From assembly GCA_024697865.1 (NCBI GenBank), contig JAILSC010000025.1:1-62345 (forward strand): a DNA stretch of 62,345 nt, read 5' to 3'. Each line of letters begins with the position of its first letter. The stretch's first letter is position 1. Under the pieces are notes generated by a model, which was not told the DNA's origin, did no database searches, and worked only from the letters and a program-made list of their open reading frames with translations. The stretch comes from Candidatus Saccharimonadota bacterium (lineage in GTDB: Bacteria; Patescibacteriota; Saccharimonadia; Saccharimonadales; Saccharimonadaceae). The translations under genes and the position numbers were made by a program. Positions 39,031-59,288 of this stretch are shown piece by piece.

Positions 39031-41370
39031 TTAAGCTTTTTTGGTAGTGGTTTTCTTCTTCGTGGTGGTCTTTTTCTTGCCGCCGCGAGCTCCACGCCGA
39101 GTGGTTTTAGGCTTGTTCTCTAGCATCTCACGCGCCTCGGCTTCGGTGATTTTGGTCGGGTCTGCGTCTTTAGGAATCTTTACGTTATTGCGTCGTCCTG
39201 GACCCTTAACGTATGGGCCATAAGCACCGTTGATGATCATGATTTCATCCCAATCGGCAATGATCGAATCTATCTTTTTCTGGTATAAAGGCAAAACCTC
39301 TTCCAGGGTTACAGTGTATGGGTCATAATCTTTCATCGGAATATTATATTTGCCGGCTTTAAGATATGGGCCAAATGGTCCATTGGCAGCAATAAGCTCC
39401 GTGTCATCTTTGGCTTTGCCTAGTACTCTCGGTAGAGCCGGTAGTTCTAGCTGTTTTAGGGCCTGCTCCAAGGTAACTGTTTTGACGGATTTGCGCTTTG
39501 GTAAAGGCGCAAAGCGAGGTTTTTCGCCTGACTCTTTTTCGTTGTCGCCCAATTGGATGAAGCCACCGTTCTTCCCTACTTTTGCGTAGATTGGTTTACC
39601 ATCTGCCGGGTGATGGCCCAAAAGACGCGCATTGTTGTAACGCTCTACGCCGTTAGCAATCAAAACTGTATCTCTAAATGGTCCATAAAAATCTTTCAGC
39701 ATTTTAACCCGTTCTAGTTTAGCATCAGCTACTAAATCTAGATCTTTCTCGATGTTGGCCGTGAACTTATAGTCTACGATATTCTTGAAGTTATCCGTCA
39801 AAAACCCAGCCACGAGTTCGCCGATTGGTGTAGGTAGGAGCTTGCCTTTATTGGCTCCGTACTTCTCTGTCACTGCGTGCTTGGTGATCTTTCCGGCCGC
39901 AGTTTTAAGCTCAATCACTTCACGTTCTTCACCTTCGCTTTCACCCTTCACCACGTAGCCTCTGGCCTGAATCGCAGTCATGATTGAGGCATAGGTTGAA
40001 GGTCGTCCGATACCCAGTTCTTCCAGTTTTTTCACCAAAGAACCTTCAGTGTATCTAGCGGGCGGTTTAGCGAAACTCTGCTTAGCCGTGAGCTCAATAC
40101 AGGAGATCTGATCGCCCTTAGCTACTTTTGGCAGCTCCAAGTCTTTAGCTTTGCCGTAGACTTTCAGAAACCCATCAAAGATTACGACTTCGCCTTTAGC
40201 CACAAAGGTTGTTTTTTCTTTCTTGGCGGCAATTTTGATAGTGGTCTTTGCGACTTTGGCATTAGCCATCTGCGTCGCCACTGTCCTTGCCCAAATCAAT
40301 TGGTAAAGTCGCTTTTCGTAATTATTTTTACCCGCCGCAGTCAGTGAAATATTAGTCGGGCGAATCGCTTCGTGGGCTTCTTGGGCTGAAGCGTCCTTAG
40401 TCTTAAACGATCTAACTTTCAAATAATTTTTGCCAAATTCCGATTCGATGTAGTCGGCAATGGCTTTTACTGCTTGCCCAGACAAATTCAATGAGTCTGT
40501 TCTGTGGTAAGTAATTAAACCAGCCTGGTACAGCCCTTGCGCTGCGCTCATTGTGGTACGAGAAGAAAATCCAAGCTTAGAGTTGGCCTCGATCTGTAAA
40601 GCCGCCGTAGTAAATGGTACTGGGTTAGCCTTGGTGCCCTCCTTTTCTTCTACTTCCGCAACGGCGAACTCATCAGCGATTAGCTTCCCCAATAATTCCG
40701 TAGCGTCTTTTTCTGTCTTCGGGTTGTCGCCTTCTAGAGTGGCGTCAAAATCCCAGCCGGCCTCATTACCAGCATACGAACCGTCCGCGTCTTTTAAGAA
40801 TTTGCCCGAAACCTTAAAATCAAATTTACTTTCAAATTTTTCAATTTGCTTTTCTCGCTCCACGATCAGGCGTAAAGCCGGTGACTGGACTCGCCCTGCC
40901 GACACCGCTCCTGGCACTTTTCGCCGGACAATATCCGACAAATCATACCCTACCAACATGTCTAGTGTCTGACGAGCTTGCTGCGAGGACACCATGTCCA
41001 TATCCACTTTCCGCGGGTTCTTAATAGCTGCTTCTAGAGCCGACTTAGTAATCTCGTGAAAAGTAATCCGTGCGGTATCTTTTGGCAATTTCAATACTTC
41101 GCAGAGATGCCAAGAAATTGATTCCCCTTCGCGGTCTTCATCTGTAGCTAACCAGATTTTATCGGCGGCTGCGGCCTCTTTCTTCAATTCGGTAATAATT
41201 TTTTTATGGTCTGGATCAATTTCGTAAGTCACGTCAAAGGTGGTTTTGTCTACCTTAGTATCTTTGCGGATATGCCCAATCGAAGCCAAGACCTTAAAGT
41301 CTGACCCCAGATATTTCTCAATTGTTTTAGCCTTCGCCGGGCTCTCTACTATTACTAAGTTCTTTGCCAT
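39031..41370 (-). CDS. topA: DNA topoisomerase I
   Basis: The 779-residue type IA topoisomerase has the TOPRIM start 'KNLVIVESPAKAKTIEKYLG' and 'ATDEDREGESISWHL', the catalytic 'GLITYHRTDSLNLS' (active Tyr), and 'IGRPSTYASIM'. The C-terminus has topo-C repeats ('NGPFGPYLKAGKYNIP', 'NGAYGPYVKG') and a Lys/Thr tail; there are no zinc fingers. It relaxes negative supercoils. Minus-strand TGTTATAAT (hexamer 41383-41378) ends 7 nt before the ATG. The candidate RNA gene upstream ends 12 nt before this -10 box. Confidence 0.96.
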   Translation of the reverse strand: MAKNLVIVESPAKAKTIEKYLGSDFKVLASIGHIRKDTKVDKTTFDVTYEIDPDHKKIITELKKEAAAADKIWLATDEDREGESISWHLCEVLKLPKDTARITFHEITKSALEAAIKNPRKVDMDMVSSQQARQTLDMLVGYDLSDIVRRKVPGAVSAGRVQSPALRLIVEREKQIEKFESKFDFKVSGKFLKDADGSYAGNEAGWDFDATLEGDNPKTEKDATELLGKLIADEFAVAEVEEKEGTKANPVPFTTAALQIEANSKLGFSSRTTMSAAQGLYQAGLITYHRTDSLNLSGQAVKAIADYIESEFGKNYLKVRSFKTKDASAQEAHEAIRPTNISLTAAGKNNYEKRLYQLIWARTVATQMANAKVAKTTIKIAAKKEKTTFVAKGEVVIFDGFLKVYGKAKDLELPKVAKGDQISCIELTAKQSFAKPPARYTEGSLVKKLEELGIGRPSTYASIMTAIQARGYVVKGESEGEEREVIELKTAAGKITKHAVTEKYGANKGKLLPTPIGELVAGFLTDNFKNIVDYKFTANIEKDLDLVADAKLERVKMLKDFYGPFRDTVLIANGVERYNNARLLGHHPADGKPIYAKVGKNGGFIQLGDNEKESGEKPRFAPLPKRKSVKTVTLEQALKQLELPALPRVLGKAKDDTELIAANGPFGPYLKAGKYNIPMKDYDPYTVTLEEVLPLYQKKIDSIIADWDEIMIINGAYGPYVKGPGRRNNVKIPKDADPTKITEAEAREMLENKPKTTRRGARGGKKKTTTKKKTTTKKA

Positions 41371-41394
41371 ATCACATATTATAACACATAAAAC

Positions 41395-41707
41395 AAAAAA
41401 GCCTCAGGTAAGGGTGGGCATCACCTGAGGCTATTTTGGCCCTCTAACGCTTCTCTTTCTATACCGGGAGAACCCCGGAAGCGTAACCCACCTCACACAA
41501 TTTTGGGGCCCGCCGGTTAGAGGGATTGCTGAGCCTTTGAAAGGATCCCTTTCAAAGTGGAGGTAATACTTATAAACACTAAACCATGAAGAAATTTAAT
41601 GCCCGAAAGGGTTTCAAAAGCTCGCAATTTCTGCTACACTAGGAGTAGTATAGCTGAAATTATAACTTATTTAGGTGCGGTGTGAGGCTCTTTTTCAAGC
41701 CCCAACT
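41395..41707 (-). ncRNA. Candidate 313-nt structured RNA gene
   Basis: A perfect promoter (41742-41714) gives a start near A41707 and a strong terminator (GCCTCAGGT/ACCTGAGGC, then T6) ends the RNA near 41395. No ORF is present. Internal stems include GCTATACTA/TAGTGTAGC, a 10-bp CTTTGAAAGG/CCTTTCAAAG hairpin, ACGCTTC/GAAGCGT, and CCCTCTAAC (41524-41516) with GTTAGAGGG (41448-41440). The 5' end can pair twice with the loop closed by that last stem: TTGGGGC with GCCCCAA, and CCTCACAC with GTGTGAGG, a pseudoknot. I found no tmRNA (no T-arm/CCA), RNase P or SRP signature. Confidence 0.75.
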
Positions 41708-41713
41708 GTTTTA

Positions 41714-41742
41714 ATTATATCACAGGAGAAAAAATATGTCAA
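41714..41742 (-). promoter_or_regulatory. Perfect consensus promoter of the 313-nt RNA
   Basis: Minus-strand TTGACA (41742-41737), 17 bp, TATAAT (41719-41714) with TGA before it. The -35 hexamer overlaps the dprA start codon on the other strand. Confidence 0.88.
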
Positions 41743-42638
41743 CACTTTTTTCACACTTTTTTACAAAAATCAACCAAATTTCACCCCTAGAGCATGATTT
41801 TACAGAGGTGTTGGAGGCTATTGCGCTTAAGCCTAAAACATTGTATTTTCGTGGAAAATTGCCCGAAAATGTGTTGAAAACTGTAGCCATTGTGGGCTCT
41901 CGTCATAATACCTCTTATGGCAAAGAGGTAGCCTATAACCTTGCTTACAAACTTGCCCAGAGGGGTGTGGTGATTGTTTCGGGTTTGGCCTACGGAATAG
42001 ACAGTATCGCTCATCAAGGGTGCTTAGATGCTGACGGAGTGACCATGGCCGTGCTAGGGACACCGATCGATCAAATTTATCCTAAGAATCACCTATCTAT
42101 TGCCAAAGAGATTGTCGAAAAACACGGAGCGATCATCTCCGAATATGCACCCGGCACTAAAGTCAACACTAGATTTAGTTTTCTTGAACGTAATCGTTTA
42201 ATTTCTGGCCTCTCTGATGTTGTAGTAGTGGTTGAGGCGGCCGAACGCTCTGGTTCTCTTAACACTGCCACGCATGCGCTCGAGCAAGGTAAAACCGTCT
42301 TTGCTGTTCCTGGCAATATCACCAATCCTTATTCTCAAGGATGTAATAAATTGATTAGGCAGGGCGCGCTTCCCTATACTTCCCCCGATGATGTGTTGCA
42401 GGAGCTTTTTCCCGAAGACTACGTCAGGGAGCGTAAAAAGCTTTGCCAAGCTCAGCTCATTGGCGACACCGACGTCGAAACTAAGATCCTTCAAGCTATT
42501 GCCGGTGGTAGTCGTTCTGGTGAAGAAATTATGAACATAACCAAGCTTCCACCAGAGGTATTCAACCAAGCCGTTACTCTTCTTGAAATTAAATCCCGCC
42601 TCCGCCCACTCGGGATGAACAATTGGGGACTAGTATAA
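41736..42638 (+). CDS. dprA: DNA processing protein DprA
   Basis: The 300-residue protein has the Rossmann-like DprA core: 'VAIVGSRHNTSYGKEV', 'GVVIVSGLAYGIDSIAHQG', 'AVLGTPIDQIYPKNH', 'RNRLISGLSDVVVVVEAAERSGS' and 'VPGNI', plus a C-terminal winged helix. It loads RecA on incoming single-stranded DNA in natural transformation; CPR bacteria commonly keep competence genes. AGGAG precedes the ATG. Its own promoter must lie within or beyond the oppositely transcribed RNA gene; TATAAC at about 41660 is a weak candidate. Confidence 0.94.
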   Translation: MSTLFSHFFTKINQISPLEHDFTEVLEAIALKPKTLYFRGKLPENVLKTVAIVGSRHNTSYGKEVAYNLAYKLAQRGVVIVSGLAYGIDSIAHQGCLDADGVTMAVLGTPIDQIYPKNHLSIAKEIVEKHGAIISEYAPGTKVNTRFSFLERNRLISGLSDVVVVVEAAERSGSLNTATHALEQGKTVFAVPGNITNPYSQGCNKLIRQGALPYTSPDDVLQELFPEDYVRERKKLCQAQLIGDTDVETKILQAIAGGSRSGEEIMNITKLPPEVFNQAVTLLEIKSRLRPLGMNNWGLV

Positions 42639-58217: not shown

Positions 58218-59180
58218 CTATTTATCCCAATCAAATCCTTCGCCGTAATGACCCCAGCGTGCGGTGGCCTCGTAGATCGGGCGTTTCAAATCCAGGAATT
58301 TAATGATTCCATTTGGTGTCAAATCGTACCCCTTAATCTCTTCTGGTTCACCATCGATAATTACCGTTTTTTCCAAAGGTTGATCGTGACCGATCGCATA
58401 GGCTAGCCGCACCAACACTTCGTGAGCTTTTCGCTCCCGAAGATAATCCACGGCGATTTTGCGCGCCACGTAGGCCGCCGAACGGTCTACCTTGGACGGA
58501 TCTTTACCGGAGTAACAGCCTCCACCAATTGCTACGCGTGGCCCATAGTTATCTACAATCAATTTTCGTCCAGTTAGGCCAGTATCCGCGTCAAAGCCAC
58601 CCTGGTTCCAATCTCCAGCTGGGTTAATATGCAGTTCTAGCTTTCCCTTCAAGCCTTCTTCATCAATAAACTCTCGTACCATTGCTTCTAATTCTGCGCT
58701 AGGCACGTTCTGAAAGCTGGCCACGATTGAATCAATCGTACCGTCTGGCGCAATCGTGACCTGAGTTTTGCCGTCATAAGGGTATTTTGCGAAAATCATT
58801 TGGTTTAGTCGTCGCGCTAACACTACTTCCAGAGGCAACATTTCTGGGGTTTCATCACAGGCGTAGCCAATCATAATTCCCTGGTCACCCGCGCCACCGG
58901 TGTCTACACCGGCCGCAATTTCTGGTGATTGTTTCACAATTTTAGTGTGCACTTCGATATCGTCGCCAGCAATTCGTTTCACGATTCCTGGGATGTCTAC
59001 GTCTGCTGTCGAAGTGATTTCGCCGGTCACGAACACTACGTCGTGCCCGCCACAAGCCTCTGCAGCTACTCGAGCATTAGGATCAGCGCTTAAATACGCA
59101 TCCAATATTGCGTCGCTAATTTGGTCACATAATTTGTCTGGGTGTTTAGGAGAAACGCTCTCCGCTGTTCTATAGAACAT
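58218..59180 (-). CDS. metK: S-adenosylmethionine synthetase (compact form)
   Basis: The 320-residue enzyme has 'SVSPKHPDKLCDQISDAILD' (substrate His), 'GAGDQGIMIGYA', and 'GGGCYSGKDPSKVDRSAAYVAR' (P-loop-like). It makes SAM from methionine and ATP. It is about 60-80 residues shorter than the E. coli enzyme, mostly in the loops of the central domain. Expression is probably controlled by the SAM riboswitch directly upstream. The promoter TATAAT (59287-59282) starts the riboswitch transcript. Confidence 0.95.
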   Translation of the reverse strand: MFYRTAESVSPKHPDKLCDQISDAILDAYLSADPNARVAAEACGGHDVVFVTGEITSTADVDIPGIVKRIAGDDIEVHTKIVKQSPEIAAGVDTGGAGDQGIMIGYACDETPEMLPLEVVLARRLNQMIFAKYPYDGKTQVTIAPDGTIDSIVASFQNVPSAELEAMVREFIDEEGLKGKLELHINPAGDWNQGGFDADTGLTGRKLIVDNYGPRVAIGGGCYSGKDPSKVDRSAAYVARKIAVDYLRERKAHEVLVRLAYAIGHDQPLEKTVIIDGEPEEIKGYDLTPNGIIKFLDLKRPIYEATARWGHYGEGFDWDK

Positions 59181-59271
59181 ATCTTTCCTTTCTTGGCCGG
59201 ACTTACCACCTTGGCGCTAGGCTAGGTTGGCAGGAGGTCGTGGGGCCGTTCCCTCGCTCCTTCTTGATATT
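59178..59271 (-). promoter_or_regulatory. SAM-I-clan riboswitch overlapping the metK start
   Basis: Read on the minus strand the order of conserved blocks is ATATCAAGAAGG, GCGAGGGAACGGCCCCACGA, CCTCCTGCCAACC, then AAGGTGGTAAGTCC, the order and content of SAM-I aptamers. The 3' half of P1 would be GATAT, which includes the start of the ATG, and TCC/GGA of P4 contains the AAGGAAAG ribosome-binding site. No terminator is present, so control is probably at translation initiation. Confidence 0.85.
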
Positions 59272-59288
59272 AGTATTTTCTATTATAA

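Follow-up and report, generated by a model that had tools for sequence, protein, structure and literature searches.

OLE, ROOL, GOLLD and the raiA motif are orphan large structured RNAs of bacteria. The RNA gene described here lies on the minus strand of a 62,345-nucleotide stretch of DNA, hereafter the window, whose source genus is Nanosyncoccus or an immediate relative within the Saccharibacteria (counts for the "genus" refer to that group). Among named genomes, DprA had its best matches in Candidatus Saccharibacteria MAGs, the majority from ruminant gut, and in Candidatus Nanosyncoccus alces. Like OLE and the others, the RNA is stand-alone, highly structured, devoid of an ORF and conserved within a clade, with a function that is not obvious from sequence, whereas it differs from them in having no Rfam 15 match, in its architecture, in being universal among the sampled genomes of its order, an order of reduced genomes, and in its fixed dprA neighbourhood. 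RNase P RNA and tmRNA are comparable as pseudoknot-rich housekeeping RNAs of 300–400 nt, but both are encoded elsewhere in this genome. The sole match to the RNase P RNA model (RF00010) was found at C15:19369-19709 and the tmRNA (RF00023) at C15:23078-23428, ARAGORN finding none at the RNA locus, and both identities were rejected. 6S RNA (RF00013) is similarly a short monocistronic transcript with a strong promoter and presumed abundance, but it forms a long bubble hairpin, whereas the RNA here is multi-branched with pseudoknot candidates and gave no match to the model. With SRP RNA it shares the size class of the large form and a presence throughout the sampled order, but it has neither a model match nor an S-domain motif, and the order has no recognisable SRP54 GTPases.

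The search against Rfam 15 returned no match at the gathering score, and none was creditable under a permissive threshold of E ≤ 10, the best having an E-value of 0.71 and 19.1 bits against the 50 needed. No match was obtained at E ≤ 1 for 20 distant homologues, or for one homologue of family f31 scanned alone. The sequence-only reading had seen no tmRNA, RNase P, SRP or 6S signature, and this held, as the first two are at other loci and the SRP and 6S models remained unmatched. Covariation-supported structure was found across divergent homologues, and the RNA almost certainly represents a new family that has no detected relative and belongs to no Rfam family. No published description of such an RNA was found in the literature searched, the coverage of which excluded subscription papers and preprints. 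PGAP lists only two ncRNAs in Nanosynbacter HMT352-KC1 (PMC8830319), which is consistent with the RNA being unannotated. Elsewhere in the window, a SAM-I riboswitch (RF00162, 55 bits) was found on the minus strand at 59176-59273, directly before a metK-like ORF (58218-59180, minus strand).

The RNA gene is preceded on the minus strand by a -35 element TTGACA (41742-41737), a spacer of 17 nt and a -10 element TATAAT (41719-41714), which together match the consensus at 12 of 12 positions and are accompanied by an upstream TG; the perfect promoter had been pointed out earlier with no strand named. The strong terminator and the lack of an ORF claimed at the same time were also confirmed, with a hairpin at 41431-41401 followed by a T-run at 41400-41395, and with a longest stop-free stretch of 54 codons in any frame (L001) and no conserved or shared reading frame when homologues were compared. 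The minimum free energy of the fold was -116.8 kcal/mol as compared with -87.2 ± 5.1 kcal/mol for dinucleotide shuffles (z = -5.8), and none of 100 shuffles was as good. The locus is a stand-alone, single-copy gene that encodes a structured noncoding RNA about 300–400 nt long and has a near-consensus sigma-70 promoter and an intrinsic terminator; its features are as follows:

41395..41707, minus strand: RNA gene, about 313 nt, placed by promoter and terminator spacing and by homologues; predicted 5' end at about 41707
41714..41742, minus strand: promoter TTGACA-17-TATAAT, conserved in homologues; its -35 overlaps the dprA start codon
41680..41706, minus strand: P1, the 5' hairpin; 5 of 8 pairs changed on both sides
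41673..41679, minus strand: segment a, CGCACCU; many homologues carry its complement immediately before the 3' strand of P4, a candidate pseudoknot
41629..41658, minus strand: P2 hairpin; 6 of 8 pairs changed on both sides
41613..41628, minus strand: P3, 5' strand; 6 of 16 pairs changed on both sides, 100% paired
41555..41571, minus strand: P5 hairpin AAGU-AUUACCUCC-ACUU; loop CCUCC at 41559-41563, nearly invariant
41525..41541, minus strand: P3, 3' strand, from the genus covariation analysis
41516..41524, minus strand: P4, 5' strand CCCUCUAAC; both-side changes in 4 of 9 pairs (genus) and 4 of 10 (order)
41464..41514, minus strand: P4a and P4b, the domain enclosed by P4; weak covariation, size and sequence varying between families
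41486..41492, minus strand: GGUGGGU, which may pair with the terminator loop; each of the 68 non-Nanosyncoccus homologues parsed has one or more segments of this kind
41440..41448, minus strand: P4, 3' strand GUUAGAGGG, from the genus and order covariation analyses
41401..41431, minus strand: terminator hairpin; loop GCCCACCC near-invariant, at 41412-41419; 9 of 9 pairs with both-side changes in the order-wide alignment A5
41395..41400, minus strand: terminator T-run, six T, read from the sequence
41736..42638, plus strand: dprA, an ORF, the divergent neighbour; near and divergent in 121 of 136 homologous loci
39031..41370, minus strand: topA, an ORF, the downstream neighbour; position not conserved

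The many stems that had been predicted from the single sequence were found to covary in relatives. In a plain MAFFT alignment of 28 full-length genus sequences (A2), 97.1% of the cells pair, and both-side changes were seen in 26 of 67 pairs as compared with 13.3 ± 1.9 in shuffles and 4–10 with slid structures; the sequences being related, the shuffle counts are not probabilities and the slid controls are the fairer comparison. None of 500 shuffles reached any of the covariation measures. At least four both-side-changed pairs were present in each of P1, P2, P3, P4 and the terminator, and one in P5. P4a and P4b had none within the genus and some across genera, and the domain inside P4 to which they belong differs in length from family to family, with a span of roughly 50–150 nt. 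Across genera (A3), 13 of 24 pairs were changed on both sides, in an alignment that was fitted to its model so that the counts lean towards that model. In the order-wide alignment of P4 and the terminator (A5), 13 of 19 pairs were changed on both sides, with a covariation score of 0.359 versus 0.137; for A5 as for A2, the structure was drawn from the alignment's own consensus. Covariation supports P1, P2, P3, P4 and the terminator hairpin, and P5 is mostly invariant. In several other families of the order (L300, L301 and L302), an extra hairpin was observed between P4 and the terminator.

Homologues of the whole unit were found by BLASTN in 33 of the 60 nearest genomes, all 33 belonging to one genus, and BLASTN gave no match in 24 families elsewhere in the order. 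R1, a covariance model built from 28 sequences of the central domain, matched 47 of 247 order genomes, and these matches extended to other genera within the family and to one additional family. A second model built from 44 sequences (R2) matched 194 of 393 order genomes and 50 of 156 genera, always with one copy per genome. Weak matches in about nine further families were read singly, and nearly all of them carried the same promoter and the conserved segments, namely a 5' CGYACCUUAUACCCC, UUCUAAC-hairpin-GUUAG, a UACCCUCCACU hairpin, CUAAYCCCUUUAACC ... GGUGGGUUGAAGGG, and the terminator loop GGUGCCCACCC; because promoter and segments are the same, these matches are true homologues. When a third model made of P4 and the terminator (R3) was run on a phylum-wide sample, it matched 32 of 32 sampled order genomes at E ≤ 1e-8 and, furthermore, a genome from another order of the same class (G412), in which the same promoter abuts dprA. 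The only R3 match outside the class (E 0.006) has none of the features of the RNA and was taken as chance, and the family was not detected elsewhere in the phylum at the sensitivity of R3. The genomes searched are mostly MAGs, and the E-values, which come from a short calibration, are rough. Thus, the RNA family is universal in the order Saccharimonadales by the 32-genome sample and occurs at least once in a sister order, a breadth that the earlier reading had underestimated. The few Nanosyncoccus MAGs with no match probably reflect assembly gaps; in G004, the RNA is cut by a contig end.

From these genomes, 136 homologues were extracted; extraction failed at only six loci, of which some are interrupted by the end of a contig. 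The -35 element is TTGAC[ATG] in 136 of 136 and the spacer is 17 nt in 135 of 136, counts that hold partly by construction, as TTGAC and an approximate -10 were required at extraction. In one region (L013, G007:C5:82029-82877), the RNA gene is closely followed by additional partial copies of the terminator hairpin, which occur in both orientations.

A possible double pseudoknot had also been proposed, and this claim stood in part: both complementarities are conserved or compatible in most homologues, but they are mostly invariant, and covariation offers no proof of them. For segment a, the complementarity is perfect over 7–9 pairs in, for example, L152, L154 (with G-U) and L210, and mostly invariant elsewhere; it is weaker where the partner strand is GGGUGGG, and the segment is altered in L182, L189 and genus g28. 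Nearly all sequences have GCCCACCC as the terminator loop, with an exact frequency set by construction since this loop was searched for at extraction, and the sister-order genome G412 has GACCACCC. A GGUGGG-type segment was located in all of the 68 non-Nanosyncoccus homologues, on the P4 side only in 24, in the domain only in 21, in both places in 23 and in neither in 0 (Fisher p 1.5e-5, not corrected for relatedness). The one genus sequence that had been flagged with neither copy proved to be a parsing error. Both pairings are supported candidates, and the terminator loop would, rather more probably than otherwise, fold back on the GGUGGG segment, whether this lies within the P4 domain or next to it, and close a compact pseudoknotted core.

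Of the exposed elements, the loop of P5 is the most suggestive. Nine bases, AUUACCUCC, are common to this loop and to GGAUUACCUCC, the 16S 3' tail in this genome, and CCUCC is the conserved apical part of the loop. This motif was found by script in 131 of 136 homologues; of the other five, four had been mis-parsed yet keep CCUCC, and one has CCCUC. In at least one homologue (L213), the motif is seemingly lost at the P5 position. Apart from the Nanosyncoccus-like and g32 sequences, most homologues have ACCCUCC in place of ACCUCC in the loop; this keeps CCUCC but does not reproduce a 16S tail exactly, the tail used for comparison being that of this genome. The closest complements of the P5 loop elsewhere in the genome (the longest of 11 nt) include two apparent sites of a Shine-Dalgarno (SD) sequence plus start codon, GGAGGUAAUAUG and GGAGGUAAUACAAAAUG. 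GGAGG, as an rRNA target in trans for CCUCC, was absent from the window's first 4 kb, where the sequence opens with the 16S 3' end. An SD-binding, translation-linked reading was favoured because the CCUCC loop is conserved, AUUACCUCC is common to the 16S tail and complements occur at SD-plus-start sites. The CCUCC loop would then mimic the anti-SD sequence and pair with SD-like GGAGG in mRNA leaders, which would tune translation globally, and the exchangeable domain inside P4 would serve as a lineage-specific platform. This is our preferred reading, held tentatively, and taken by itself it is rather doubtful.

The neighbourhood of the gene raises the alternative of an action in cis, either as a leader or attenuator of topA or as an antisense or divergent-promoter regulator of dprA. 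Where dprA is adjacent (121 loci), its start codon overlaps the -35 element of the RNA gene in 100, TGTTGACAT and ATGTCAACA being complementary. Transcription of dprA would have to start inside the RNA gene or past it, on the other strand, giving a leader antisense to P1; no consensus promoter for dprA was found inside the RNA gene on that strand at a threshold of at least 9 of 12 matches. Against this, no adjacent dprA was found in 15 of 136 loci, several of them with a stop-riddled N-terminal remnant, and the RNA and its promoter are kept there. Only 50 of 136 loci have topA downstream in the same orientation as the RNA, frequently separated from it by hundreds of bases, and neither a topA nor a dprA role explains the conservation of the whole 300-nt fold. 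Since the RNA outlives dprA and topA is inconstant, the RNA is neither a topA leader nor merely a dprA regulator; the former was rejected outright and the latter mostly, and a cis-acting role as a whole is unlikely. Of the expected placement of homologues upstream of topA and dprA, the dprA part was upheld as a conserved neighbourhood, and the topA part proved incidental. The loci with dprA absent beside the RNA include L145, L146, L148 and L149-L153, in some of which a short stop-riddled N-terminal remnant is left and the promoter over the former start codon is retained. In the window, a TATAAT-like sequence (41370-41393, minus strand) was observed directly after the RNA terminator and a few bases before the topA ATG, so that topA may lack a leader or have its start inside its own promoter region. 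Retention of the RNA in loci with no dprA, together with the inconstancy of topA, argues for action in trans, and the RNA is likely to be an abundant, constitutive, trans-acting RNA or RNP.

Among trans-acting roles, a 6S-like regulator of RNA polymerase standing in for 6S RNA would agree with the strong promoter, the monocistronic unit and the single copy, and no RF00013 match was found in the genome even at E ≤ 10, an absence which is weak evidence as the model recovered 6S RNA in only 8 of 14 control genomes; the multi-branched fold, which has no long hairpin bearing a central promoter-like bubble, makes this very unlikely. That the small and large bacterial models (RF00169 and RF01854) find no SRP RNA in the genome would leave room for a divergent SRP RNA or its replacement, but SRP54-domain proteins (Ffh and FtsY) were above the Pfam cut-off in 0 of 45 order genomes as compared with 14 of 14 controls, and a motif scan of 707 kb of the genome found no Ffh/FtsY GTPase motif. 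A published remark that many CPR bacteria lack SRP subunits (PMC8080830) agrees with this result. An SRP identity was rejected as largely refuted and is now highly improbable. A dual-function RNA encoding a small peptide has a negligible probability: the purine-rich GAGGUGGG segment could serve as a ribosome-binding site, but no start codon or frame is conserved, single-base insertions and deletions are frequent in the alignments, and the longest stop-free stretches of six sampled homologues (45–88 codons) are not shared. With no shared reading frame, a coding RNA was rejected. The main rival of the SD-binding reading is an orphan RNP scaffold or ribozyme-like RNA, in which the invariant segments would form a protein-binding or catalytic core, and CCUCC and GCCCACCC would serve tertiary structure and not mRNA pairing. 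The compact multi-helix fold, the pseudoknot candidates, the near-invariant unpaired segments, the peripheral domain, whose size differs from family to family, the single copy and the strong promoter would all fit it, and the invariant loop could equally bind a protein. Such an RNP or ribozyme would be one with no known family or partner protein, and we give it a substantial, though minority, probability. Returning to the SD-binding reading, the package as a whole, comprising a new family, action in trans, a pseudoknotted core, SD mimicry and a lineage-specific platform, falls a little short of being probable. The widest version, a class-wide essential RNP that is pseudoknotted, mimics the 16S anti-SD and regulates translation globally in epibiotic bacteria that have no SRP pathway, would be a type of housekeeping RNA for which other bacteria offer no known example, and we consider it improbable.

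The novelty concerns the RNA family, and a new mechanism is possible. The presence of the RNA in 32 of 32 sampled genomes, its near-perfect promoter and the deep covariation, in genomes of 0.6–1.4 Mb, suggest that it is likely to be fundamental to these bacteria. In the Tn-seq study of S. epibionticum, essentiality was called by ORF (PMC10633639). The RNA is probably a basic, so far undescribed part of how Saccharibacteria work, and existing RNA-seq and Tn-seq data now allow a test of whether these parasites depend on an RNA machine specific to their lineage.
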